A stretch of DNA of 42,449 bases, taken from the NCBI GenBank assembly GCA_012718985.1, contig JAAYBG010000007.1, positions 1-42,449 on the forward strand, given 5' to 3'. Every line of letters starts with the position of its first letter. Position 1 is the first letter of the stretch. Shown here piece after piece: positions 1 to 36,248 of this stretch. A program made the position numbers and the translations under genes. The stretch is from Acholeplasmataceae bacterium (GTDB taxonomy: Bacteria > Bacillota_I > Bacilli_A > ML615J-28 > CAG-698). The notes beneath the pieces are model-generated. The model made no database searches. It saw only the letters and a list, made by a program, of their open reading frames with translations, and was not told the DNA's origin.

Positions 1-464
1 AATTTCTGGCGATCTAAAGTTGTCAATTTTCCTTTTTCCATTTCTTTAATGGTATCTTGCGCCTTATATCCTAAACAACAAGGATTACCCTTTATTAGTT
101 CTTGATAGATAGCATGGATATCCGTCCTTCTTATCATCGGTCGGGCTCCATCATGAATTAAAACCAAATTGCTCGTCGCCGCAAGCAACCCTTGATAAAC
201 ACTATCCTGTCTAGTTGCTCCACCAACCACCAATTTCAATTTTGTTTGAGGAATATCATAGGTATACCTCTCAACTATTTCCCTTTCACCTTCTCGATAA
301 ACAAGAATGATTTTATCACATTGTGGCACTTTTAAAAATTCATCTAGTGAATAGCGAAAAACAGGTTTTCCATTAATAGTATGAAAATTTTTATTGTACG
401 AAAGTTGTAATCGAGAACTATTACCCGCGATTAAAATGATTGCTTCAAATTTTTCGCTTGTCAT
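1..464 (-). CDS. ispD: IspD, 2-C-methyl-D-erythritol 4-phosphate cytidylyltransferase (partial, C-terminus outside window)
   Basis: I translated the minus strand from an ATG at 464; the frame is open to the window edge, giving about 154 N-terminal residues. Visible family features are the nucleotide-binding start (AIILIAGNSSRL, in place of the usual AAG.G.RM), NGKPVFRYSLDEF, the VVGGATRQDSVYQGL stretch and VLIHDGARP. IspD transfers CMP from CTP to MEP in the cytosolic isoprenoid (MEP) pathway; dxr of the same pathway lies at 18.3-19.5 kb. The start overlaps the end of the upstream PAS/GGDEF-like gene by 20 nt, so it is probably translated as part of the mgsA cluster. The Shine-Dalgarno sequence is weak (ACGAG). 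The glycine-rich loop is slightly atypical (NSSRL rather than GSGKRM). Identification is good; completeness cannot be judged. Confidence 0.9.
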   Translation of the reverse strand, partial: MTSEKFEAIILIAGNSSRLQLSYNKNFHTINGKPVFRYSLDEFLKVPQCDKIILVYREGEREIVERYTYDIPQTKLKLVVGGATRQDSVYQGLLAATSNLVLIHDGARPMIRRTDIHAIYQELIKGNPCCLGYKAQDTIKEMEKGKLTTLDRQK

Positions 465-2016
465 ATAAAAACTCGTTATTGATATCTACACGATATTTAT
501 CGAATTGATAATTGGGACGCTCTTCCCGTTTTTCTCGATAAATACTGAAAGGTCTACCATAATCAGGATTTGTTGCATAGGATAATGCTTCATAACCAGC
601 AACAATAAATCGCTCTGGACTTGGATTAAGGATGCTTTCACTCTTTACAATTCCCAATGCATTGGTCATCTGATATTTATTTCCATTAAAAACAATCTGC
701 ATACTCAACAAATCAGAGACATTGCTATTAATTTCACTAACAATTCTTTCATAATCCGCAGTTCCTGTAAACAGTAAACAATAATCAACATTAGACAGTT
801 TATATACACGGGTCTGATTCAATCTCGTTGATGTTAATTGAGCAAAGTAGCGATCAGTTAATACATTAGCGACATCTTTACCCAATTTTTCAGCGTAACC
901 AGCAATCTTTTTTAATGTCATAAACACCAAAACAAAATTGCGTTTACTATCTTGATTGAGTTTAATTTCATTTTCTAAAGCTTCCCTTGGCAAGTATTTC
1001 ATTTGTCGCGGTATAAATTTTGCCCAATGAATGATGTTATAGACATATATTCCTTCAAAGGTTCTCGTTTCTTCGAACCACTCAATTCCATTCACTGTCT
1101 TTAAACGATAATAATACTTGTTGCTTCCTTCTTTTTGAGTTAACATTCGTTTATAACTAGCAACATCTTCCTCAACAATATAATTCAACAAGTTTTCTCC
1201 CGTAATAACATCCTCATTGATACCGATGGTTTTTTTCATTGCCTCAGTAAGAATATAATGATTATTTGCACTATCAAAATAGGCCAACGGTTCATTTAAC
1301 GAATCAAAGAAATTAAACATATGAGAAGCATATTCTTTTACAACAGTATCTTTATACAATTGGCTTGGTGTTAACTTTTGATTATATAGTAAATATCCTC
1401 GTAGTTTTCCATTCTCAGTAATCATTGATTTTACTACTTCTTCTTTTACCGAAGCAAAATCGCTAAATACGATTTCAATATTGAATGTCTTTTCACCAAA
1501 CTCTCGCAAATGGTTCATAAACTTCTTATATGACATTTTTTCTCCATCGCAAATAATGTTCTTTACAAGACGATGCCATCTTTTCTTGTTTTGATAATCT
1601 TTAGGTAAGATATCATAAAACTGATCCGTAAACATCAATAGTTTCGATCTTTTATCAAAATAAGCATAGATGTTGCTTTCAATATTGGATGGCGTAAGTT
1701 GATAAAATTTCATTTTGTTTTTATATTTTAATGCTCTTATTAAAATAATAACATATAATAATAAACACGCAAAAATTAGTTCAGCCACTGTCCAAACGAT
1801 CAAATTAATTCCTAACAATGTTATGATTAATTCTCTGGTCAAATATTTTGTGAAAAAGAATAGACCTATCGATAGTAAAATTATCAATGTCTCAATGATT
1901 GGGACTTTTTTAAAAATCACAATCGTCGATATATATAATAGACCTAAAATTGTAAATCCTAAAATAGCAATATCATTTTGCTTTTGGATAATAAAATTTA
2001 TGATATTTTCTAACAT
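445..2016 (-). CDS. Membrane-bound PAS / degenerate GGDEF signalling protein
   Basis: The 523-residue protein starts with about four hydrophobic segments (roughly residues 15-95). Two PAS-like regions follow (about 105-200, around [20 protein letters not shown]; and about 235-330, around [19 protein letters not shown]). The C-terminal domain has the layout of GGDEF (start [10 protein letters not shown], then the region where DIDxFK and NDxxGH should be), but the GGDEF signature is replaced by SNVDY. It therefore should not make c-di-GMP. Membrane + PAS + degenerate GGDEF resembles the front part of GdpP, but the DHH/DHHA1 phosphodiesterase half is absent. A strong GGAGGG precedes the ATG, which overlaps the mgsA stop by 7 nt; its own end overlaps ispD. 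A sensory or nucleotide-binding role is inferred; the ligand is unknown. Confidence 0.7.
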
Positions 2017-2381
2017 GGTTTTCCCTCCAATCCAACGATCAAAGCCGCTGTTTTTTTGTTTGTCGCTAAAGGAATTTCATAAACATCACATAGCCGCAAC
2101 AAAGCAGAGACATCTGGCTCATGTGGTTGGGCTGTCAATGGATCGCGGAAGAAAAAAACAAGATCGACTTCCCCTTTGGCAATCCGTGCCCCTATTTCTT
2201 GATCACCACCAAGCGGCCCTGATTTGTGACAATGTATTTTTAAATTAGTATGTTCCATGATTAGTTTTCCTGTTGTTCCCGTTGCATATAGAGTATGACG
2301 GCTTAAATATTCCTCGTTTGCTTTTGCGAAAGCGAGCATATCCGGTTTTTTCTTATCATGGGCAATTAAAGCTATTCTCAT
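2010..2381 (-). CDS. mgsA: Methylglyoxal synthase
   Basis: This 123-residue protein is the normal size for MgsA, which converts dihydroxyacetone phosphate to methylglyoxal and phosphate as an overflow bypass of lower glycolysis. Diagnostic stretches are [12 protein letters not shown], the phosphate-binding [19 protein letters not shown] (with the catalytic Asp of GGDQ) and [19 protein letters not shown] (with the conserved His of PHEPD), then [11 protein letters not shown]. The ATG is preceded by AGAGG. It is the first gene of a cluster with the PAS/GGDEF-like gene (7-nt overlap) and ispD. A separate promoter lies just upstream, and the terminator of cdaA separates it from that operon. Confidence 0.97.
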
Positions 2382-2501: not shown

Positions 2502-3302
2502 TCACTTGATTGCCAAATACTGATCAAGTATTTCCCGCAACCTTTCGTTTGTCAATTCTAAATTAATAACTCCAGAAATGGTAACTGATACATTCCCTGT
2601 TTCTTCAGAAACAACAATGGTTAATGCATCATATTTTTCACTGATTCCAATAGCTGCACGATGACGAGTTCCAAAAGATTTCGGGATATCGTATTTATCT
2701 GTAGAGGGGAAATATGCTCCAGCACACATAATCCTGTTTTTGCGGATAATGATTGCCCCATCATGGCAAGCAGTTCCCGGAGTAAATATAGTTGTTAAGA
2801 GTTCTTGAGTAATCACACCATTAATTGGAATTGCTTTTTCAATAAAAGTATTTAAACTATCTTCTCTTTCAAAGGTTATCAATGCTCCAATATGACGTTT
2901 AGATAAATAATCTACCGTTTGACTAATGGTATTAATAATAATTTGTTTTTCTTGAGCAGATGAAAATGCATTATCTACTTTTGACTTCACAAAAACTTCT
3001 TCCCATATATTTCTAATTTCTTGACCATAAATAATAATAAAGACTCCAATCATCCAAAAAGCGAAAACTTTAATGATTGCCTTAATCATTTTTAAATCAA
3101 ATAAAATCGTTAACAAGTAAATCAATAATAAAATTAAAAGGGCAAGAAGAAATTTTTTTGGTTTTATTCGTTTTTTAATTAAAAAATATAAGGCTATTAA
3201 TACACCCACTACTAACAATAAATCGGTTACCGCTCTAACAATCCCCAAAAGACTAAATTTGTCAGTATATTCTGATAAAATATCAATAAAATTATCAAAC
3301 AT
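2502..3302 (-). CDS. cdaA: Diadenylate cyclase CdaA (c-di-AMP synthase)
   Basis: Three N-terminal membrane segments (about residues 20-45, 52-70, 80-95) precede a DAC (DisA_N) domain with both signature motifs: DGA in CHDGAII (about residue 185) and RHR in FGTRHRAA (about 217). The enzyme joins two ATP into c-di-AMP, an essential messenger for potassium, osmotic and wall control in Bacillota. I start at the ATG at 3302, 8 nt after AGAAGG, rather than the GTG at 3311 that overlaps this site. In most Bacillota cdaA is followed by cdaR and glmM; here neither is adjacent. Instead it is the last gene after a helicase-like gene and an ankyrin gene whose end it overlaps by 8 nt, and a terminator follows. 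Confidence 0.96.
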   Translation of the reverse strand: MFDNFIDILSEYTDKFSLLGIVRAVTDLLLVVGVLIALYFLIKKRIKPKKFLLALLILLLIYLLTILFDLKMIKAIIKVFAFWMIGVFIIIYGQEIRNIWEEVFVKSKVDNAFSSAQEKQIIINTISQTVDYLSKRHIGALITFEREDSLNTFIEKAIPINGVITQELLTTIFTPGTACHDGAIIIRKNRIMCAGAYFPSTDKYDIPKSFGTRHRAAIGISEKYDALTIVVSEETGNVSVTISGVINLELTNERLREILDQYLAIK

Positions 3303-3873
3303 CTTTTTCACCTTCTCCGCTTAACATCAAATCTATTTGATTTTTTCTTTCCTGATCTAATTCTTGTTTACTCATAAGATATCGAATCATCTTTTCATCT
3401 TTTTCCTCAATTGCATAATCAATAGGTAAGCAATTAACCTCATCCAACATATTAACATCAGCCCCATGCTCTACTAAATACTTAACTATTTCAATATTAC
3501 CATTTAAAGCTGCTAAATGAAGCGGAGTCTGTTCTTGAGATGCACCAACATTCAAATCACACCCGCTATTTACCAAACTCCTGATAAATTTTAGTTTCCC
3601 TTCATTAACCGCTTTATGTAGCGGAGTATCGCCATACTCATTGGCAATATTCATATTTACTCCTGCTTTAATAAATAAATTGAATAGTTTAATATCGTTT
3701 AGTTTCAAAGCAACATGAAGTAAGGTTTGACCCAAGTACCCCTGTGTACTGACATCAATATTTTCTTCTTTTAATTTGGCTAAGGTACTTTTAATATAAA
3801 AATACCGATGAGGATCTTGTTTAACCGTATCAACAAATTCCTTGAATTTCTTTTTATCACCGCGTTTAATCAT
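3295..3873 (-). CDS. Ankyrin-repeat protein
   Basis: About 192 residues with four recognisable ankyrin units: QTLLHVALKLNDIKLFNLFI, DTPLHKAVNEGKLKFIRSLV, QTPLHLAALNGNIEIVKYLV and a diverged last one (LPIDYAIEEKDEKMIRYLM). There is no signal peptide or membrane segment, so it should be a cytosolic protein-protein adaptor. I use the ATG at 3873, 9 nt after GAGG; a TTG at 3891 is in frame but less likely. The ATG lies inside the last codons of the upstream helicase-like gene (8-nt overlap), and its end overlaps cdaA, so all three are probably translationally coupled. The function is unknown; a partner role for CdaA or the large ATPase is inferred only from position. Confidence 0.85.
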   Translation of the reverse strand: MIKRGDKKKFKEFVDTVKQDPHRYFYIKSTLAKLKEENIDVSTQGYLGQTLLHVALKLNDIKLFNLFIKAGVNMNIANEYGDTPLHKAVNEGKLKFIRSLVNSGCDLNVGASQEQTPLHLAALNGNIEIVKYLVEHGADVNMLDEVNCLPIDYAIEEKDEKMIRYLMSKQELDQERKNQIDLMLSGEGEKDV

Positions 3874-6800
3874 TACTAATAGCCTCAACAATTTTTTTTG
3901 CCGTATAATCCAACCCTTTAATCAAGGTGGTTTTTTCAATAACTACTATTTTCCAACCATTTTCAACATTCGCATAATATTTATCACGATAAATATTCAT
4001 GATTTCTATTCGATTAATCTCATCAAATAAAATGAGAACGCCATATAAAATATCATCCTTTTCTAAGATTAAATTTACATTATCGTTGTTTACATAAACC
4101 TGATAACCATAGTTTTTTATTTCTTGTGCTAGTAATTCTTTGCTAGTATCGCTGAAGTTTTCTGAAAAAATTTGGTCATATCCATCTAAAATATCTTTTA
4201 GACCAGCAGCAAATTTAAAATCCTGCTCTTCTTGTAAAATTTTGTTTTTGTCATAAATAATAACCTTTTTCTTGCACAACAATAAATTATCTAACATATT
4301 ATCATAAATATAATCAATATCAACCATATAGTAATCTTCATAATCGATGATGTTGTAGTCCGCATCGATAAGATATCCATTGGCAAGATCACAAATATTA
4401 ATGTTGTTTTTGAAAAAATGATTGATTTGTATGAAATTGTAGTTCTTCTTATTAAGCATTTTAGATATTTCTTGATAAGTAGATTGTTGTTTCCCCAAAT
4501 TCTTAATAAAGTAATTAATCTTTACGTTTTCATCGTTTCCCAACAATTCTAAAATATAGTCGTTTATGTTTTTCTCAATAATCATAAGGCCCATATTCGC
4601 CGAATAGGTGTTAGGGAAAAGACCTCTTTGCCCTTTCATAAAATGAATTAATCCCTTTGGCGTTAAAGAATAACGATAATCAAGATAAAACTTTTGTGTG
4701 TTTTTAATAATAGAAATCAAATTATTGGAAATAGATTCGTGTAATTGATACTCTCCAGAGATAATAAGCTGCGCTTTTGTTTGTGATAAAAACTGAAGAT
4801 TAGAACTTGGAATATGAGCATCATCAACAATAATCAAATCGAAATCATCTACGTTAATATATTTTTCGATTAATTTGGTACTGCCAAGAAAGATATGCTT
4901 TACCCCTTTTGTTCGGCGAATGTAATTTTGATAATCTAAATGCTTTAAGCCACTTAAATTCACACGATGAAAACTAAATTTTCGGATATCGTTTAAAACA
5001 TTTTTACTTTCTTGTGCGATAATACTTGTTTCAAGTTGATTAATTTCTTGTAAATAAACGTTAATATCACGAATTTCTGACAAAATTTGGTGATTAGTCA
5101 AATATCTATTATTTAATTCATTTAAATAAATAGAGCAAAAATCAGCTACAATTTTATCTTTTCTTTTCGTTGTAATAATATATTTAATCAATTTCCCCAG
5201 TTTATATTTATTTAAAACACCAAGGCCTTCTGTTATTGTTAAATAATTGAGTAATTCATCTTTTGAGTTTAATAGTTTAGTGGTATACTCTAGTGTTTCT
5301 TCAAAATCATTGTAATAGTAACGAGAAATTCCATCCTTAAAAATCTTACAATACATTTTAAATGTTTCGATTAAAGCATTACCAATCTCTTTACATGTAG
5401 TAATATGTGTTATAAGTAAAGCATGTCGTTTTGGATGAAAACTATTTACAAAAAAGCTAAGGTTTTTGAAACAATCCACGTAAGCTTCGAAATTTTGCAT
5501 TATTTTAGAAATTGATGAAACAACTGTTTTCTCATTGTTGTATAAAACTCCAAAAAGTCTTTTATACTTTTCATTATCTTTTAAATCATCAATTTTTTTG
5601 TTTTTCTCACGCAACATATCGCGAATATCCAAGTATGTTTCCGCTTTAATATAATCTTGCTCACTGGCTCTAATAACCGATAACATACGATCATTTGAAG
5701 AATATAAATCCTGAATGTACTTGAAGATATTATCGAGATTAAGTATTTTTTCGTAAGTATTATTCCCTTGTATCATCAAATCATATTTTGATAAATCTTC
5801 TATTAAATCGAATAATTCCAAATATGCTTTCTTATACATTAATAATGTTTTTAAAACTTTATCGTACTCTTCTGTTGCCATGATCTCTTTGTCTGTCAAA
5901 CGATAAAACATCTTGGTAATAATTCCCCGATATTCATAGCGAGTGATGTTAGAAAAATACTCTTTCAGTGTATCAAGTTCTCCTAACAAATCATTATTAG
6001 CGTCATATTTCACTTTCGTTAGATTGAAATATTGCTCTTTCAAGACTTTCAAACGATGAGAAGCGGCAATGTTTTGTTCCATTTCAAGAACAAAATCATC
6101 AATCTTAACTTTATTATACTTTTTACGTATGCTGTTTAACGCCTTATTCTTGGCTACATTCGAATCGATTTTCTTTATTTCTTTGATATTTTTCAAAATT
6201 ATTAAGCTCTCTTTAATCGTTAATTTTGGATATTTTCCTCGGAAATTATTAACGATTGTTATAAGTTCATCGATTTCTACTGTAACTTTATTCAGCTTAT
6301 TAGTAAATGAATCTTGTTGATTATTTACTACTATATTCACTAATTTACGATTAATTTTATGTGTACTAACATAATTAATAAATTTTATGATTTCTTCTAA
6401 TCCTTCATCTATTGCCCAAAATTCCCAATCAGAAAAAGCAAAGATTTTTTCTAGAGTCTTTAAAAAGATTTCTTTTTGAATTGCCCCTTTGTTAATCTTA
6501 ATTGTTACTTTTTTACGATTAGCATTTAAACTATCAATACTAGAAAAATCATTTTGTTTGAAATATTTCTGAAAAACCACCGCTATTTCATCTTCAATAT
6601 TGATTGAATCTAGGTTAGTATAACGCTGATTACAATAATTGTTGATTTCTTGGATTTTATTAATTTCGTTTTTAAGGTTTTTATATTCTGTTTGAGCTTC
6701 TTTAAATCCTTTCAAGGATTCTTCTACCCAACTTTTTGGTACTAATGCAATATCTAAATTTTCTAAATGATATAAAACATTCTTCAACATCGCATAATTT

Positions 6801-8179
6801 TCGATCTTTTTTATCCCAAAATTGGTTTCAAAATAATTCTTCTCTTCCAAGAAAGTTCTAAAGCACCGATTAATTTGATATATCAAGGTAATAATTTGAT
6901 TAGGATATTTAACATTATTTAAAACTGGGATTTCTTTCCATATGCTTTCTTTAAAGTTATCCATTTTTAATAATGCACCTTGAATCTTTTCTAAACTCGT
7001 TTTAATCGTAAAGTATTCATGTTTATATAAATCTTCAAGTTTGTCGATTTCTATTTTTTCTGTTGATGGATCACGGAATTTCAACAGTTCATCAACTACT
7101 TCTAAATACTGAAAATTAGCTATCCTTCCATTCATCGCTGTTTCGTATTCATTTAATTTTTGATAACGCTCAAATAAATCATCCTTCAACTCTTTTGGTG
7201 AAGAATAATTGCGGGAAATAATATCTACAGTGTTAGTCAGCAAGTTTGTAAATGGTATTGACAAATCTGCAACATAATTTTCCATATTTATTTGTTTCAT
7301 ATAATCAAGAATATCCGTTAATGTTTCTATCATATCGGAAATAAACAAAACCCGTTTTCCTTGATTTACTGCATTAATCATTACGTCTTTCAAAACCGTT
7401 GTTTTCCCCGTACCAAGTCGCCCAACAATAGAAAAACTTTTCCCTAAAACAGCATTGATTAAAATTTCTCGTTGTGTTTTGTTGAGTGGCAAAGAATAAT
7501 AGCAATCGGCTAAATCAGCTGAATATAATTTGTCCGATAACTTGTTTTCTATTTCCTTGTTCCTCTCCAATTTTGAAAAATCAATTAATACATCTTTCTT
7601 CCTGATATTTCCATAGGTTAGATAATTCTCCAAGCGAATGCTGAATCCTTCATTGTTGGCAAAACTCATACAGAATTGGTCAATTGCATAAACGCTGTCT
7701 AATTTGTTTCCCCATAAAATACTACTCTTTGTAACTTCAGTCAAGGTAGACAATAATAATGGATTTTCAATTGGCGAATTAACCAATTGAAAGTAGATGT
7801 TTTCAGAAACAACAAACAAATCAACAGGAATTAAAACAATCGGCATAAATACTTCTTTGTTATCATTGTTTGTATATGTTAGAATTCCATAACTAATAAT
7901 CAATTGTTTTAATTTATCCTTATCAACAATATTTTTAAAAAACAGATAGGGCATCTTATTGCTTAAATCTTTGTTTTGAATGTTCATTCGCCCAATACCC
8001 ATATTTTGAATAGAAAAATCAACAATATCATTTATGTTAATCATTTCATAATTAAGCAGTTTTTCAAGAACTTGATAATCTAAATTGCCTAATTCAAGAT
8101 AAGCGTCTGCACTAAATATACTTTTTAGATGTAAATTTTTAGATGATAGTCTTAAATTGGTAGCAGTATCTCTAGTCAT
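3866..8179 (-). CDS. Large DUF4011-type SF1 helicase-like ATPase with eroded motor and nuclease-like tail
   Basis: About 1437 residues. The N-terminal part has the DUF4011 pattern (GILTYTN...MPIVLIPVDLF...NSPIENPLLLSTL, about residues 98-148). LPLNKTQREILINAV and a Walker A GRLGTGKTT (about 253-261) follow, then VLFISD. About 800 Lys/Glu/Ile-rich, probably coiled-coil residues come next. LIIVDDAH (about 1119) and ISGEYQLHES are altered motifs II and III (normally DEAS and GD.QLPP). I find no arginine-rich motif VI. The tail (about 1355-1437) has the layout of the Vsr-like nuclease of this family (YGYQVYV, VNLIL, GWKIVVIEKTTL), but the metal-binding Asp positions look lost (VNL for IDL, FDE for CDG). 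ATG at 8179 is 8 nt from GAGG; the ATG at 8185 is too close. ATP binding is likely; unwinding and cleavage are doubtful. First gene of the operon with the ankyrin gene and cdaA. Confidence 0.75.
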   Translation of the reverse strand: MTRDTATNLRLSSKNLHLKSIFSADAYLELGNLDYQVLEKLLNYEMININDIVDFSIQNMGIGRMNIQNKDLSNKMPYLFFKNIVDKDKLKQLIISYGILTYTNNDNKEVFMPIVLIPVDLFVVSENIYFQLVNSPIENPLLLSTLTEVTKSSILWGNKLDSVYAIDQFCMSFANNEGFSIRLENYLTYGNIRKKDVLIDFSKLERNKEIENKLSDKLYSADLADCYYSLPLNKTQREILINAVLGKSFSIVGRLGTGKTTVLKDVMINAVNQGKRVLFISDMIETLTDILDYMKQINMENYVADLSIPFTNLLTNTVDIISRNYSSPKELKDDLFERYQKLNEYETAMNGRIANFQYLEVVDELLKFRDPSTEKIEIDKLEDLYKHEYFTIKTSLEKIQGALLKMDNFKESIWKEIPVLNNVKYPNQIITLIYQINRCFRTFLEEKNYFETNFGIKKIENYAMLKNVLYHLENLDIALVPKSWVEESLKGFKEAQTEYKNLKNEINKIQEINNYCNQRYTNLDSINIEDEIAVVFQKYFKQNDFSSIDSLNANRKKVTIKINKGAIQKEIFLKTLEKIFAFSDWEFWAIDEGLEEIIKFINYVSTHKINRKLVNIVVNNQQDSFTNKLNKVTVEIDELITIVNNFRGKYPKLTIKESLIILKNIKEIKKIDSNVAKNKALNSIRKKYNKVKIDDFVLEMEQNIAASHRLKVLKEQYFNLTKVKYDANNDLLGELDTLKEYFSNITRYEYRGIITKMFYRLTDKEIMATEEYDKVLKTLLMYKKAYLELFDLIEDLSKYDLMIQGNNTYEKILNLDNIFKYIQDLYSSNDRMLSVIRASEQDYIKAETYLDIRDMLREKNKKIDDLKDNEKYKRLFGVLYNNEKTVVSSISKIMQNFEAYVDCFKNLSFFVNSFHPKRHALLITHITTCKEIGNALIETFKMYCKIFKDGISRYYYNDFEETLEYTTKLLNSKDELLNYLTITEGLGVLNKYKLGKLIKYIITTKRKDKIVADFCSIYLNELNNRYLTNHQILSEIRDINVYLQEINQLETSIIAQESKNVLNDIRKFSFHRVNLSGLKHLDYQNYIRRTKGVKHIFLGSTKLIEKYINVDDFDLIIVDDAHIPSSNLQFLSQTKAQLIISGEYQLHESISNNLISIIKNTQKFYLDYRYSLTPKGLIHFMKGQRGLFPNTYSANMGLMIIEKNINDYILELLGNDENVKINYFIKNLGKQQSTYQEISKMLNKKNYNFIQINHFFKNNINICDLANGYLIDADYNIIDYEDYYMVDIDYIYDNMLDNLLLCKKKVIIYDKNKILQEEQDFKFAAGLKDILDGYDQIFSENFSDTSKELLAQEIKNYGYQVYVNNDNVNLILEKDDILYGVLILFDEINRIEIMNIYRDKYYANVENGWKIVVIEKTTLIKGLDYTAKKIVEAISND

Positions 8180-23176: not shown

Positions 23177-26100
23177 TTAGCGTAATTGTTTCAAACCAAT
23201 CTTCACATTTTCTCCATTGATATTGAATTCTTTTGATGATTCAATATCTTTATCAAAATGTACTGTGATTGCCAGAACATCTCGTTTAATACTATCGATA
23301 TTCTTTTCCATAATTTCTTTAATTTTATCATTACCAGAAACATAGATTTCAATGTAATCCATTACGTTGAAATCAGACTCTTTTCGCGTTGTTTGAATTT
23401 TACTGATAATTTCTCGAACAAAACCCTCTTCAATTAATTCTGGTGTCAATCTTATATCCATAACAACGGCTATATAATTATCAGATAACGCTGAAAATCC
23501 TTCTTGTTGGATAACTTCAATTTGTAGGTCTTCTTTGACTAATTCAACATCAATATCTTTCACTTTCAGCTTTAAACTACCTGTAGAGTCTAGTTCCCTT
23601 TTTGCTTGAACTCCATCTATTTCCAGTAATGCGCTCTTTATATCATTGATATATTTACCATATTTCGGACCAACAGTCTTAAAGTTTGGCTTAAAACTAT
23701 AAGATATGAATGAACTTATACTATCTGTAAATAAAACTTCTTTCACATTCAATTCTTCTTCAATAATCTCTACATAGAATTTTTCTAATGGTTTTGCCGT
23801 TTTCACATACATTTTGCTGATTGGTTGACGATTCTTTATATTACAATTATTTCTAACCGCTCGTCCCATTACAACAATATCTAATACTGATTCCATATTA
23901 TTCTCTAAATCCCTATCAATCCATTCTAAAACTGGAGTTGGATAATTGCATAGATGAATACTTTCTTTTGCTTTTTTATCGACACTTCTTACCAAATTTT
24001 GATAAATATCTTCAGTCATAAATGGAATCATCGGTGCAGCTACCTTAGCAATGGTTACTAGTGCTGTATACAAAGTCATATAAGCATTAATCTTATCTTG
24101 TTCCATTCCTTGAGCCCAGAAGCGTTCACGAGAACGACGAACATACCAATTACTCATTTCATCAACGAAATCTTGTAAGATTCTTGCTGTTTCAGTAATC
24201 TTATAGTTAGCAAGATTGTTATCTGCTTCTTTCACAACTGTATTTAGTTTAGATAATAGCCATTTATCCATTACTGAAAGTTGTTCGTATTTTAAATCAT
24301 ACTTCGTTGGATCAAATTGATCAATCTCTGCATATAGGACATAAAATGCATAGGTATTCCATAATGTCCTTAAGAATTTTCTTTGTCCTTCAACAACTGC
24401 ATCTTTATGGAAACGATTAGGAAGCCACGGAGCACTATTCTCATAAAAATACCAACGAATAGAATCCGCACCAAATTCAGCCAAGACTTCCATAGGATCA
24501 ACGGCATTTCCCTTTGATTTACTCATTTTTTGTCCGCTCTCATCCTGAACATGGCCTAAGACAATCACATTACGATATGGTGCTTTGTTGAAAACGAGTG
24601 TTGATATTGCTAGTAATGAGTAAAACCATCCTCTTGTCTGGTCAACAGCTTCCGATATGAAATCAGCAGGGAATTGCTCTTTAAACATTTCTTGATTTTC
24701 AAATGGATAATGCCATTGAGCAAATGGCATTGCCCCTGAATCATACCAACAGTCAATTACCTCTTCTACTCGATGCATTTCTTGCCCACATTTAGGACAA
24801 GTAATCGTTACAGCATCAATATATGGACGATGAAGTTCAATATATTCAGGACAGTTATTAGACATTTCTCTTAACTCGCTAATAGAACCAATTACATGTT
24901 TATGACCACATTGGCACTCCCAAACTGGAAGCGGAGTTCCCCAATAACGGTTACGACTAATACCCCAGTCTTGAATATTTTCTAACCAATCACCAAATCT
25001 CCCCTTACCAATGCTTTCAGGAATCCAGTTTATCGTATTATTGTTTCTAATCAAATCCTCTTTTACATCTGTCATCTTAATGAACCAAGATTCACGAGCA
25101 TAATAGATTAGTGGGGAAACACAACGCCAACAATGAGGATAGCTATGTTCATACTTGTAAACTTTAAATAACAGTCCCCGTTCTTTCAAATCTTTTAAGA
25201 TTAATTTATCAGCTTTCTTACAGAACATTCCCGCCCAATCGGTTTCTTCCGTTAATTCTCCCCGAGCATTGACATATTGCACCATTTTTAAACCGTATTT
25301 TTTACCAACATTATAGTCATCTTCACCAAACGCTGGAGCCATATGAACAATTCCTGTTCCATCTTCTAAGGTAACAAAATCACCACAGGTAACAAAAAAG
25401 GCATTCTTTGCTTTTTCACTAAAGTGAAATAGAGGTTCATAATATTTATACTCTAGGTCTTTTCCTAACATTTTTTCTAATACAAGATAATCGCTTTCTA
25501 GTACTTTCTCTAGCAAAGCTTCTGCCATATAATAGACTTCACCATTCTTTTTTGCTTTTACATAAGTCGTTGTAGGATTTACACAAAGCGCTACGTTAGA
25601 TGGTAGTGTCCAAGGAGTTGTTGTCCATGCAAGAAAATAGGCATTTTCCTCCTCCAATTTGAATTTAACAATAGCCGATTCTTCTTTTACATCTTTATAC
25701 CCCTGTGCTACTTCGTGAGATGAAAGCGGAGTTCCGCAACGAGGGCAATAGGGAGTAATCTTGTAACCTTTATATAATAATTTTCTATCCCAAACCTTTT
25801 TTAAACTCCACCAAACTGATTCAATATACTCATTATGGTAGGTAACGTAAGGATTTTCATTATCTACCCAATAACCTACAATATCAGAAAAATCTTCCCA
25901 CATTGCTTTGTATTTCCATACACTTTCCTTGCATTTTTCAATGAATGGGGCGATTCCGTATTCTTCAATTTGCTCTTTGCCATCAATTCCCAAAGATTTT
26001 TCTACTTCAATTTCTACTGGTAAGCCATGAGTATCCCATCCAGCTTTTCTTAATGCATAAGCTCCTTTCATAACATGGTATCGAGGTATCATATCCTTGA

Positions 26101-26290
26101 TTACTCTTGTTAGAACATGTCCTATATGCGGTTTTCCATTTGCTGTTGGTGGACCATCATAAAATGTATAATTTCTATTTCCTTCTTTTTCAGAAATACT
26201 CTTTTCAAAAATCTTATTTTCTTTCCAAAAATCCCGTACTGTTTTTTCTCTTTCAACAAAATTTAAATTTGTTGGTACTTTTTTATACAT
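23177..26290 (-). CDS. ileS: Isoleucyl-tRNA synthetase, long (type 2) form
   Basis: 1037 residues. Class I signatures HIGH (55-58, in TANGKPHIGHVLTR) and KMSKS (in SGQKMSKSKGNAVDP). Editing (CP1) domain includes AWTTTPWTLPSNVAL and GTGIVHMAPAFGEDDY; zinc-binding clusters TPYCPRCGTPL and ITCPKCGQEM. The length and the stretch YDGPPTANGKPHIGHV with ALRKAGWDTHGLPVE fit the eukaryote-like type-2 enzymes (about 1030-1050 residues) rather than the 910-940-residue type 1. The ATG follows GGAGGG. It stands alone behind a T-box leader and its own promoter, so it should be induced by uncharged tRNA(Ile). Confidence 0.97.
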   Translation of the reverse strand: MYKKVPTNLNFVEREKTVRDFWKENKIFEKSISEKEGNRNYTFYDGPPTANGKPHIGHVLTRVIKDMIPRYHVMKGAYALRKAGWDTHGLPVEIEVEKSLGIDGKEQIEEYGIAPFIEKCKESVWKYKAMWEDFSDIVGYWVDNENPYVTYHNEYIESVWWSLKKVWDRKLLYKGYKITPYCPRCGTPLSSHEVAQGYKDVKEESAIVKFKLEEENAYFLAWTTTPWTLPSNVALCVNPTTTYVKAKKNGEVYYMAEALLEKVLESDYLVLEKMLGKDLEYKYYEPLFHFSEKAKNAFFVTCGDFVTLEDGTGIVHMAPAFGEDDYNVGKKYGLKMVQYVNARGELTEETDWAGMFCKKADKLILKDLKERGLLFKVYKYEHSYPHCWRCVSPLIYYARESWFIKMTDVKEDLIRNNNTINWIPESIGKGRFGDWLENIQDWGISRNRYWGTPLPVWECQCGHKHVIGSISELREMSNNCPEYIELHRPYIDAVTITCPKCGQEMHRVEEVIDCWYDSGAMPFAQWHYPFENQEMFKEQFPADFISEAVDQTRGWFYSLLAISTLVFNKAPYRNVIVLGHVQDESGQKMSKSKGNAVDPMEVLAEFGADSIRWYFYENSAPWLPNRFHKDAVVEGQRKFLRTLWNTYAFYVLYAEIDQFDPTKYDLKYEQLSVMDKWLLSKLNTVVKEADNNLANYKITETARILQDFVDEMSNWYVRRSRERFWAQGMEQDKINAYMTLYTALVTIAKVAAPMIPFMTEDIYQNLVRSVDKKAKESIHLCNYPTPVLEWIDRDLENNMESVLDIVVMGRAVRNNCNIKNRQPISKMYVKTAKPLEKFYVEIIEEELNVKEVLFTDSISSFISYSFKPNFKTVGPKYGKYINDIKSALLEIDGVQAKRELDSTGSLKLKVKDIDVELVKEDLQIEVIQQEGFSALSDNYIAVVMDIRLTPELIEEGFVREIISKIQTTRKESDFNVMDYIEIYVSGNDKIKEIMEKNIDSIKRDVLAITVHFDKDIESSKEFNINGENVKIGLKQLR

Positions 26291-26305: not shown

Positions 26306-26540
26306 AATAAAAAAACTCCCACCCTAAAAAGGATGAAAGTTCGGATTTCATTATACCACCTTTTTACATACTGACATATGCTATCCTAATAACGGGGGAT
26401 ACCGGCACAGCTTACTATTTTCAGCCTGCAACTCCAGAGTGATTTTCATAAAGGCATACTTTTGCTAGTTTTCCACCACCACTAGCTCTCTAAAAATTTT
26501 TGCGGTTACTACTTTCTCTATCTTTGTCTTTCTTTTTACC
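26306..26540 (-). promoter_or_regulatory. T-box leader (tRNA-Ile) of ileS
   Basis: On the minus strand the order is: Stem I apex AGAGAGCTAGTGG...AAAACTAGC (26464-26493), specifier ATC followed by A (26442-26444; ATC = Ile) ahead of CTCTGGAGT, then the T-box region AAAAAGGTGGT (26355-26365) with UGGU. UGGU would pair with an ACCA tRNA end, i.e. discriminator A. The terminator is AACTTTCATCCT / AGGGTGGGAGTT (26314-26341, with G-U pairs) plus T run. The antiterminator alternative pairs AAAAAGG (26359-26365) with CCTTTTT (26326-26332). This is the classical transcription-attenuation T-box that reads uncharged tRNA(Ile). Confidence 0.92.
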
Positions 26541-33647: not shown

Positions 33648-36248
33648 CTATAATTTTGTCGGAATCTGCATTGTCATACAGTGGATATTACCACCGCCCA
33701 ATAAAATCTCCCTTGTGTTAATTTGGATAATTTCCTTTTCAGGATAATTTTGTTTCATAATATTATAAGCTATTTCATCCTCAGGAACTCCGAATGCAGG
33801 CAAAATGACATAAGCATCAGATTGATAGAAGTTGATATAACTAGCCGATAAACGCGAATTAACCAAACGTTCTTTGCTTGTATGTTCACGATTATCAATT
33901 CCTTTTGCTTCTTCTTCAGTCATGTATAAAGGTTTTGGTAATGGTATCTTCACAATCTCAAATTTTCTCCCTTTAGAATCGGTTGTTTCGCTTAACGTGT
34001 TGTAAGCATCGACACACATTTGATATTGTGGATCATTAACATCATCACACCATGCAAGAGCAATCTTGCCAGGTGCTAAGAAACATGCCATATTATCGAT
34101 ATGTTCATTTGTTTCATCAAGATAAATTCCATTTTTTAACCAAATTACTTTTTCCACATTTAAATTTTCTTTGAGAATGTTCTCAATTTCTTCTTTAGTT
34201 AGAGTTGGATTTCTTCCTTCGCTTAGTAGGCAAGCCTCTGTTGTTAGACAAGTTCCTTCACCATCAAAGTGAACACTACCCCCCTCTAAGATAAATCCTT
34301 TATTCAAATAGTAAGAAAAACCTAGTTTCTCGCAAACCTTTTTTGCTAGGGCATCATCAAAATCCCAATTAGTATATAAACCATCGACATTTCCACCCCA
34401 TGCGTTGAAGCCAAAATCAATTCCTCTAATCTCTTTTTCGTTTACTACGAAGATTGGCATATTATCCCGTGACCAAGCATCATTATATTCAATTTTTAAA
34501 ATTTTAACATTCTTGATTCTGAAATCCTTCGCTACTTTTGCATAGATACTCGGATCAATGCCTAAATATACAGGTTCGTATTTGGCAATTGCTTCAATAA
34601 TCTCCTTTAAATTGTTTCTTGCATAGGTACCACTATTACGCCATATATCTTTACGATATGGCAATAACATCAAAGTAGCTAAGTGTTTACGTCCCTCAAA
34701 AGGAACAATAAAACCATCTTCTTTTGGAGTAGTCAATACACGTGAATAATACCCCTCTATCTTACGATGATAGCGAGAATAATTTGTCCATGATTTTTGG
34801 TCAATTACAGAGACACTACCATCATCATAATCGCTAAGAATAGTAGAACCAGTTCCTTTATAATATTCAATACGACGCACTAATTCCTCTGTAAAGACCT
34901 CACCTGGAACAACAAGCGGAATACCAGGAGGGTATACCATAATCGATTCTTTAGAAATTTCATCAATCGCATCCGCTAATTTTACTCGTTTCATCGCTGC
35001 ATGATAAGCAGTACGTGGTCTTAACAGTGCAATTGGGAATTCAATATTGAAGTGATGTCGTGGATAATTCATTTCTCCAACAAAATATTCACTCGAAATT
35101 TCTTTTAGTGCTTTTACTAAATTATTAATATGTTCCTCTTTCGTGCCTATACCGATAATTCCTAAAACAACATAGGTTTCCGCTAGTTCCATTTGTACAT
35201 GGTACTTGTCTTTCAACAGATTATATAATTCAAAACCAGTCAACTTCATCATGTCTAGTTCAATAACCAACTTAGTTTGATCATAATCAAAGCAACCCAT
35301 ACTTTGAAAATGGTCTTTTCCTCGTGCTTTAAAGCCAGGAATTTTATTAATTTCTTCTCGTGCATAATTGGCAAAAGCAATTGCTTGATCGACTTTTTCT
35401 TTTCCTTCTATGACCATAAACTTTCTTGCAGCATCTAGACTTGCCATTAAAACAGAAGATGGGCTTGTTGAATTGATTGCATTTAAAGTCTTACGAATAT
35501 CATAATCTGAAACTCGATTGCCTTTTCTTAATAAAATAGAAGATTGTGTTAATGATCCCCCCATTTTATGAAGACTGACTGCGCTCATGTCAGCACCGCA
35601 TTCCATAGCGCTAAGTGGAGCATTTTCTGTAAAGCCAAAGTGAGCACCATGTGCTTCATCAACCAGACACAACATTGAATTATCATGTGCTAATTTTACG
35701 ATTCTTTGTAAGTCTCCTACAGCGCCAAAATACGTTGGATTGATAACAAACACGGCTTTAGCACTTGGATGTTTTTTTATCATGCGTCGATAATCTTCAA
35801 ATGTCGGTTGATTTGCAATTTCTAAATCTGAATCCAATTCAGGCATGATAAAAACAGGCATTGCACCACTTAAAATTAGTCCATTGATTATCGATTTATG
35901 ACAATTTCTTGGTATGATGATTCTATCATTAGCTTTACAAGCGGTCATAATCATGGTAATAATCCCACTGCTCGTTCCATTAATTAAAAAGAAAGCTTGG
36001 TCAGCTCCAAAAGCATCTGCCATTAACGCTTCCGCTTCTTTAATAACCCCCGCTGGACGATTCAAGTTATCTAGTCCTCTAGGTCCATTCACATCCGCTC
36101 TATAGACACTGATTCCTATATAACGACTTAAGTCATTCTCAACATTCCCCATATGGTGACCTGGCACATCAAAAGGTGATATTCCTTCCTCCATATATTT
36201 TTTTAATGCAGTTAAATATGGTGTTTTATTATGATCTAATTGTGCCAA
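33648..36248 (-). CDS. Fused arginine decarboxylase - agmatine deiminase
   Basis: 866 residues in one uninterrupted frame. Residues 1 to about 490 are a fold-type I Orn/Lys/Arg decarboxylase of the short Gram-positive type: TPYLTALKKYMEEGISPFDV, VPGHHMG, FFLINGTSSG, VDEAHGAHF, the PLP lysine K228 in SAVSLHKMGG, and YPPGIPLVVPGE with GTGSTILS. Residues about 502-866 are a full-length agmatine deiminase: TPKEDGFIVPFE, NDAWSRDNMPIFVV, DFGFNAWGGNVDGLY, VLEGGS-like FILEGGSVHFDGEGT, LLSEGRNP, DETNEHIDNMACF (catalytic His) and GGGNIHCMTMQIP (nucleophile Cys857). Reactions: arginine to agmatine, then N-carbamoylputrescine plus ammonia. The start codon is TTG with GAGG 7 nt before it; the first ATG would cut into the conserved N-terminus. 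aguB follows 13 nt downstream. Arginine rather than lysine specificity follows from the fused partner. Confidence 0.93.
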   Translation of the reverse strand: MAQLDHNKTPYLTALKKYMEEGISPFDVPGHHMGNVENDLSRYIGISVYRADVNGPRGLDNLNRPAGVIKEAEALMADAFGADQAFFLINGTSSGIITMIMTACKANDRIIIPRNCHKSIINGLILSGAMPVFIMPELDSDLEIANQPTFEDYRRMIKKHPSAKAVFVINPTYFGAVGDLQRIVKLAHDNSMLCLVDEAHGAHFGFTENAPLSAMECGADMSAVSLHKMGGSLTQSSILLRKGNRVSDYDIRKTLNAINSTSPSSVLMASLDAARKFMVIEGKEKVDQAIAFANYAREEINKIPGFKARGKDHFQSMGCFDYDQTKLVIELDMMKLTGFELYNLLKDKYHVQMELAETYVVLGIIGIGTKEEHINNLVKALKEISSEYFVGEMNYPRHHFNIEFPIALLRPRTAYHAAMKRVKLADAIDEISKESIMVYPPGIPLVVPGEVFTEELVRRIEYYKGTGSTILSDYDDGSVSVIDQKSWTNYSRYHRKIEGYYSRVLTTPKEDGFIVPFEGRKHLATLMLLPYRKDIWRNSGTYARNNLKEIIEAIAKYEPVYLGIDPSIYAKVAKDFRIKNVKILKIEYNDAWSRDNMPIFVVNEKEIRGIDFGFNAWGGNVDGLYTNWDFDDALAKKVCEKLGFSYYLNKGFILEGGSVHFDGEGTCLTTEACLLSEGRNPTLTKEEIENILKENLNVEKVIWLKNGIYLDETNEHIDNMACFLAPGKIALAWCDDVNDPQYQMCVDAYNTLSETTDSKGRKFEIVKIPLPKPLYMTEEEAKGIDNREHTSKERLVNSRLSASYINFYQSDAYVILPAFGVPEDEIAYNIMKQNYPEKEIIQINTREILLGGGNIHCMTMQIPTKL

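Follow-up and report, generated by a model that had tools for sequence, protein, structure and literature searches.

A gene for a membrane-bound diadenylate cyclase in an Acholeplasmataceae bacterium (assembly GCA_012718985.1) is the last gene of a three-gene operon that begins with a gene for a large helicase-derived protein, and this operon is conserved throughout the order to which the bacterium belongs (the host order). The operon was analyzed in contig JAAYBG010000007.1, a stretch of 42,449 nucleotides which is called the window here and is one contig of a draft genome of 1.45 Mb with a completeness of 95.6%. The products are labelled BIG (the 1437-residue protein), ANK (an ankyrin-repeat protein) and CdaA (the cyclase). 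Through deep divergence, the whole order keeps the cyclase without its usual partner CdaR and mostly without GlmM, together with the pseudo-helicase and usually the ankyrin protein in the operon. We give close to an even chance to the idea that CdaA works in a complex with BIG and ANK, which would set the cyclase activity and replace CdaR and, in most lines, GlmM.

BIG was found in all 43 genomes examined of the host order (28 of family f1 and 15 of family f2), with sequence identity down to 16%. A single BIG frame of at least 1397 residues is present in 38 of them, and several of the remainder lie at contig ends. In every one of the 42 genomes whose contigs reach both genes, at most ANK separates BIG from CdaA; in G022, the region is split over two contigs, with one break within ANK and the other a short way upstream of cdaA. 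ANK directly follows BIG in 41 of the 43 genomes. The distance between the first ATG codons ranges from -62 to +6 nt for BIG and ANK in 39 of 41 cases and from -26 to +19 nt for ANK and CdaA in 37 of 40 cases. Of the genes outside these ranges, both ANK genes and one of the three cdaA genes have an early GTG codon. ANK was not found genome-wide, as far as the search goes, in G015 and G024 of genus g14, where BIG and CdaA are 57-60 nt apart. A second ankyrin-repeat protein of the source genome (436 amino acids; L169:1563-2873) adjoins two genes that look like ones for an XTP pyrophosphatase and for a DNA-binding protein of the HU type.

The surroundings of the operon are less constant. A divergent HflX or RNR gene is located upstream of BIG in 28 of the 43 loci, several of the other loci being on short contigs, and neither was found over at least 3 kb upstream of BIG in G006, G011, G014, G033, G037 and G039. 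In G006, G014, G015 and G024, a search of 6-8 kb behind cdaA showed none of the genes that usually follow it, and BIG-(ANK)-CdaA is intact in all four. Since neighbors are missing upstream and downstream (the latter in three genera) while the unit stayed intact, the rearrangement breaks flank BIG-CdaA but spare it, and none was seen inside.

The order BIG-ANK-CdaA is also present in family f4 of another order, in all four genomes examined (G044, G056, G067 and G078; the contig of G078 ends inside cdaA). In a draw of 296 genomes from the class, BIG was detected in all 39 members of the host order and, among the matches listed from outside it, only G056 and G078 matched over most of the profile, while the match in G067 spans residues 262-658. 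The BIG protein of G044 was found by gene context (E = 8.6e-33) although the class-draw search had reported no match, and absences in that search are therefore soft. A draw of 392 genomes from the phylum gave, at E <= 1e-24, 11 matches in the host order, five partial-profile matches in family f21 and no further full-length BIG. Three of the f21 proteins were examined and rejected as BIG, being ordinary DUF4011 helicases.

A preliminary description of the window, made from its letters alone, had reported three genes with 8-nt overlaps and one shared terminator, and had linked the first two genes to cdaA. The layout was confirmed by the gene coordinates and a terminator scan, which gave 4 terminator-like sites over 6.7 kb, among them the terminator behind cdaA, compared with 2.0 +/- 1.8 in shuffled sequences. 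The neighborhood survey of 43 host-order genomes and four genomes of another order further showed that the link to cdaA is lasting. A gene order confined to the strain, which would have refuted the description's reading, was not what we found, and the conservation of BIG-ANK-cdaA is far stronger than a sequence-only reading could show.

We then compared the inheritance of the three genes. The ratios of nonsynonymous to synonymous substitution rates (dN/dS), calculated from the source genome and its two nearest relatives, were 0.12-0.15 for BIG, 0.02-0.06 for ANK and 0.05-0.06 for CdaA; the values are rough because dS is near saturation. The corresponding values for RNR were disregarded, owing to faulty coordinates in L073 and an identity exceeding 1. 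All three genes are under purifying selection. Trees were built for the 36 genomes having a long BIG, ANK and CdaA. The BIG and CdaA trees have 27 of 33 splits in common, compared with a mean of 0.3 and a maximum of 2 in 200 label shuffles, and the BIG and ANK trees have 23 of 33 in common. The separation of f1 from f2 is fully supported in all three trees. Of the 30 BIG splits with support of at least 0.9, one conflicts with a supported CdaA split and five conflict with ANK splits. Since the trees are largely congruent, BIG, ANK and cdaA have mostly been inherited together by descent.

The ancestry of BIG was analyzed with an alignment of 38 of the 47 available pieces, nine partial or split ones being dropped; the ANK alignment held 40 of 41 rows and the CdaA alignment 20 of 43. 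BIG consists of a DUF4011-like N-terminus, a superfamily 1 (SF1) helicase domain 1A with an insert of about 800 amino acids, a remnant of domain 2A and a Vsr-like tail. Pfam matches to the single sequence were weak: DEAD scored 25.9 bits (cut-off, 26) and DUF4011 13.1 bits (cut-off, 22.2; E = 0.099), a DUF4011 search of the source genome likewise gave nothing, and no match to AAA_12 (domain 2A) or MTES_1575 was obtained for the window protein at E <= 1. Seven intact DUF4011-AAA_11/12-MTES_1575 relatives from the same bacterial class served as the control; AAA_12 and MTES_1575 were matched in all seven and DUF4011 was called in six. When the profile of the 38 BIG sequences was aligned with these seven proteins by hhalign, the match had a probability of 100 (E = 2.1e-39) and covered profile columns 92-1433, nearly the full length. 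BIG thus descends from DUF4011-SF1 helicase-Vsr-like proteins. The nearest solved relative by sequence is IGHMBP2/SMUBP-2 (PDB 4b3f; whole match, E = 8.3e-9), the match covering motif I and, weakly, motifs II-III; the other PDB matches appear to be chance matches to coiled coils. AlphaFold models of residues 1-300 and 1080-1437 from a three-sequence alignment were too poor for use (mean predicted local distance difference test scores, 34.6 and 47.5).

The motif state of BIG is shared across the host order. G253, G258, K259, T/S260, D1114, D1119 and G1142 are each invariant in 38 of 38 sequences, and R1169 is kept in 35. Residue 1120, the position of the motif II glutamate, is aspartate in 37 sequences and glutamate in one, and beyond G1142 the motif III remnant is variable. 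The motif III pattern GDxxQxPP was found in none of the 38 BIG sequences, compared with six of the seven intact relatives. For the motif V pattern QGxExD the counts were 1 of 38 (a chance site elsewhere) and 7 of 7, and for the motif VI pattern NVAxTRA 0 of 38 and 6 of 7. In the hhalign alignment, no BIG sequence has glutamate at the nuclease glutamate column 1382 (the window protein has L1382), and the first nuclease aspartate, column 1369, is aspartate in 17 of 38 (N1369 in the window protein). BIG is thus a helicase-derived protein that is probably able to bind ATP but has lost many of the parts needed to unwind and cut nucleic acid. Because this motif state is common to the whole order, it is old and conserved and not the result of recent decay.

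These results refine what had been read from the single protein. The kept Walker A motif and the DDAH and GEYQLHES in place of DEA. and GD.QLPP were found again at residues 253-260, 1119-1122 and 1142-1149, and motif VI is indeed missing. Intact helicase motifs, which would have refuted the preliminary description, did not turn up among the 38 aligned sequences. Its term "eroded" holds for motifs III, V and VI but not for the ATP site, which is uneroded in the order. Similarly, the catalytic glutamate of the Vsr-like tail is lost as supposed, but the loss of the aspartates is not general. The erosion is also no peculiarity of the strain, the same state being present throughout the host order.

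In family f4, the operon is present but its BIG lacks the Walker A motif. The position at which GxxGxGKT would stand reads AKQGTRK in G056, ATYQHEV in G067 and VENRHHK in G044, with G078 like G056, and motif II reads DGAE, DGIE or DEIE. The f4 operon is kept though the P-loop of BIG has been lost. Since f4 keeps the operon without Walker A, ATP binding is not the whole function of BIG, and the ATP site of the f4 protein is not the part needed beside CdaA.

CdaA itself is an ordinary cyclase by sequence (205.5 bits with TIGR00159; equivalog cut-off, 188.8), and the catalytic motifs DG(A/G) and RHR are present in all 46 CdaA proteins checked. It is the sole protein with a diadenylate cyclase (DAC) domain in 41 of the 43 host-order genomes, including the source genome. 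The other two are contaminated bins (5-6%). Beside CdaR, G039 encodes a further two cyclases and G017 a further one, and G017 has another beside a second BIG, in a locus (L071) without ANK. The extra cdaA-cdaR pairs are on other contigs, which fits mixed bins. CdaR (PF07949) is absent from 41 of the 43 genomes, G017 and G039 being the two positives. GlmM exceeds its cut-off of 447.6 bits in only one of the 43 genomes, G024, on another contig than cdaA, and comes near it in G018 (416 bits) and G025 (397 bits). The classical order cdaA-cdaR-glmM is visible in other families, for example, in G046, G049, G052, G054 and G055.

The source genome contains a cyclic di-AMP (c-di-AMP) riboswitch (C98:1439-1559; 78.2 bits), and the gene after it was read by eye as a cation/proton antiporter. 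Since the riboswitch precedes a likely antiporter gene, c-di-AMP signalling is in use in this genome. With stricter filters, the riboswitch was detected in 9 of the 43 host-order genomes. Two tandem DHH/DHHA1 proteins of 316-327 amino acids (L168:1571-3494) are candidates for c-di-AMP or pApA breakdown, and no GdpP-sized frame was evident among five DHHA1 matches. The PAS/degenerate-GGDEF membrane protein downstream of cdaA resembles the N-terminal half of GdpP, with the DHH phosphodiesterase missing.

How might BIG and ANK act on the cyclase? A published account (PMC8573169) describes CdaA as active only in higher oligomers, with GlmM blocking oligomerization and CdaR acting via the membrane part. 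The same account states that DisA is bound and made less active by RadA, a helicase whose gene immediately precedes disA (PMC8573169). As CdaR and mostly GlmM are gone and the BIG-ANK pair directly precedes cdaA, the pair is a natural candidate for the missing control. We infer a complex, a bridging role of ANK, an effect on the cyclase (and its direction) and a sensed state, as follows. BIG and ANK would bind membrane-bound CdaA and set its activity. BIG would be the large scaffold, derived from a DUF4011-type helicase-nuclease by decay of the parts for strand separation and nuclease action; in the host order, it probably retains ATP binding and may bind nucleic acid as well. ANK would bridge BIG to the cytosolic cyclase domain of CdaA, and the complex would favor or block the active CdaA oligomer. 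The c-di-AMP output, and hence the ion balance, would in this way be coupled to a nucleotide or nucleic-acid state.

Several observations weigh against such control by BIG and ANK. BIG evolves faster than its neighbors. ANK is dispensable in genus g14, and since f4 has no Walker A, ATP binding can be done without as well. In the f4 genome G056, BIG occurs together with GlmM over the cut-off; because G056 and G024, and nearly G018 and G025, hold both proteins, BIG is no simple stand-in for GlmM. Among 17 genomes from other orders, 9 lack CdaR too, and BIG is not beside cdaA in G047, G048, G050 and G053, which are examples of CdaR-less genomes of other families. Since there are CdaR-less families without an adjacent BIG, the loss of CdaR alone does not call for BIG. 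Finally, because the region is syntenic also without BIG, part of the linkage between BIG and cdaA may be inertia.

Inertia of the operon is the main rival explanation. On this view, BIG and ANK do unrelated housekeeping, such as nucleic-acid handling, in a region that rarely rearranges. Outside the host order, 20 neighborhoods were read among 25 genomes with a CdaA match, G056 and G067 being read separately. HflX, RNR, the PAS protein and IspD/IspF often hold their place around cdaA. Genes taken by eye for HflX and RNR lie ahead of it in f13 and f15 as well, the PAS/GGDEF membrane protein lies downstream in f1, f2, f4, f10, f13, f15, f21 and f22, and CdaA, the PAS protein and IspD occur together in f10, f13, f15, f21 and f22 without an adjacent BIG. 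In G137 (L137), likewise, CdaA and the PAS protein are present and no BIG is found in the cdaA neighborhood. On the other hand, the breaks seen upstream of BIG in six genomes and downstream of cdaA in three genera never fall inside BIG-CdaA, and the overlaps or short gaps persist in both host-order families and also in another order. The presence of GlmM in G056 and the loss of CdaR elsewhere led us to lower slightly our estimate for control by BIG-ANK and to raise slightly that for inertia, which we still consider unlikely.

In f22 and f13, a protein of about 780 amino acids is encoded between cdaA and the PAS/GGDEF gene (L137:6195-8546, L142:7415-9760 and L146:6668-9019), directly after cdaA in L137 and L146 and one gene further in L142. 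Its start gave weak FAD/NAD(P)-binding matches in two of the three cases. It is possibly another lineage-specific neighbor of CdaA.

BIG or ANK may also be a receiver and not a controller, that is, a c-di-AMP-binding effector whose target would be DNA, RNA or something else. Genes for effectors often adjoin the gene of the cyclase, and the invariant Walker A motif and motif II aspartate of the host order would suit such a role. However, no known c-di-AMP-binding domain was found among the family matches of the window proteins, and in f4 the operon persists although the nucleotide site has been lost. We regard a receiver as improbable.

Defence was another suggestion: the preliminary description had considered BIG possibly descended from a defence protein, and a DUF4011 defence-candidate relative could use c-di-AMP as an alarm signal. 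Such a descent is possible only insofar as the nearest PADLOC model of BIG (E = 1.3e-18) is the candidate defence model PDC-S37, which gave 189 to 1028 bits with those intact relatives that were scanned. The distribution speaks against the role: BIG occurs throughout the order and is inherited by descent (43 of 43 genomes; tree largely congruent with that of CdaA), unlike a typical defence gene. This pattern rules out a typical defence-island gene as the present role. In addition, the helicase and nuclease residues of BIG are lost, the cyclase is of the ordinary CdaA type, and the riboswitch precedes a likely ion transporter gene, so a c-di-AMP-based defence system is very improbable.

That BIG is a dead or dying coding sequence is scarcely credible: several catalytic motifs are lost and the frames in G012 and G078 are split, possibly by assembly errors, but the long open frame of 38 of the 43 genomes and the low dN/dS already contradict it, and a recent pseudogene is ruled out by this dN/dS together with a reading frame and motif state common to the order.

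Control of CdaA by BIG and ANK, if true, would show that the control of a cyclase is rewired once wall-linked partners go and that a defence-type enzyme can be turned into a regulator. A wider scenario, which would amount to a new class of second-messenger control and which we consider rather doubtful as a whole, is that an inactivated helicase-nuclease from a family including defence candidates, with an ankyrin adaptor, became the standing regulator of a sole cyclase after the loss of CdaR and, later, mostly of GlmM. It would have been recruited in the ancestor of several Bacilli families near the wall-less lines, with one branch having become a pure scaffold without ATP binding. In the open-licence literature, no report of a BIG-ANK-CdaA system was found: no paper combined diadenylate cyclase, c-di-AMP and ankyrin, those on c-di-AMP and ankyrin dealt with other matters according to their titles and abstract beginnings, and the papers listed on cdaA context and on mollicutes, a part of those matching, held nothing alike.

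The coordinates of the operon and its neighbors are given in the table. The start of BIG was taken as the ATG at 8179, and a further in-frame ATG is located two codons upstream.

Table. Features of the BIG-ANK-cdaA operon and adjoining genes in the window
Feature	Coordinates	Strand	Remark
BIG, helicase-derived protein, 1437 aa	3866..8179	-	In 43/43 genomes of the host order
ANK, ankyrin-repeat protein, 192 aa	3295..3873	-	Pfam Ank, E = 3e-26
CdaA, membrane-bound diadenylate cyclase, 266 aa	2502..3302	-	TIGR00159 over cut-off
BIG/ANK overlap, 8 nt, ATGATTAA	3866..3873	-	
ANK/CdaA overlap, 8 nt, ATGTTTGA	3295..3302	-	
Intrinsic terminator (hairpin and T-run) directly behind cdaA	2474..2497	-	
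DUF4011-like region of BIG, about residues 87-220	7520..7921	-	hhalign to DUF4011 helicases
Walker A of BIG, GRLGTGKT, residues 253-260	7400..7423	-	
Motif II (Walker B) of BIG, FDLIIVDDAH, residues 1113-1122	4814..4843	-	
Motif III remnant of BIG, GEYQLHES, residues 1142-1149	4733..4756	-	
Motif IV-like arginine R1169 (DYRY) of BIG	4673..4675	-	
Vsr-like (MTES_1575-like) tail of BIG, without the catalytic glutamate	3869..4177	-	hhalign
DAC catalytic domain of CdaA	2571..2921	-	PF02457
Membrane protein (PAS, degenerate GGDEF) behind cdaA (context)	445..2016	-	
Methylglyoxal synthase (context)	2010..2381	-	

Two further features of the window were observed. An 866-residue protein (33648-36248, minus strand) is an Orn/Lys/Arg decarboxylase fused to a Porphyromonas-type peptidyl-arginine (agmatine) deiminase, and a T-box leader (26326-26533, minus strand) lies upstream of a gene for a class I tRNA synthetase of the I/L/M/V type (23177-26290).

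Among known systems, BIG is like the DUF4011-AAA_11/AAA_12 (SF1)-MTES_1575 proteins (PADLOC PDC-S37; related to Hhe) in its domain order and long insert, and the profile match extends over 1066-1142 columns with a probability of 100. Unlike these proteins, BIG has DD for DE, lacks GDxxQxPP, QGDERD, NVAxTRA and the nuclease glutamate, is universal in its order and adjoins cdaA. In one report, a DUF4011 gene serves as the core gene that flanks a Pseudomonas defence hotspot. The resemblance of BIG to the Upf1-like SF1B helicase IGHMBP2/SMUBP-2 is limited to the region of the ATP site. As in the cdaA-cdaR-glmM operon of Firmicutes, the cyclase is of the TIGR00159 equivalog type and stands with partners expected to regulate it, but here CdaR and GlmM are outside the operon and mostly outside the genome, and BIG and ANK precede cdaA. 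The closest working precedent is RadA-DisA, where likewise a gene for a helicase-type ATPase lies directly upstream of a cyclase gene. RadA belongs to another family and is a functional helicase, and DisA is a soluble DNA-binding cyclase, whereas BIG is SF1 derived and degenerate and CdaA is a membrane protein.

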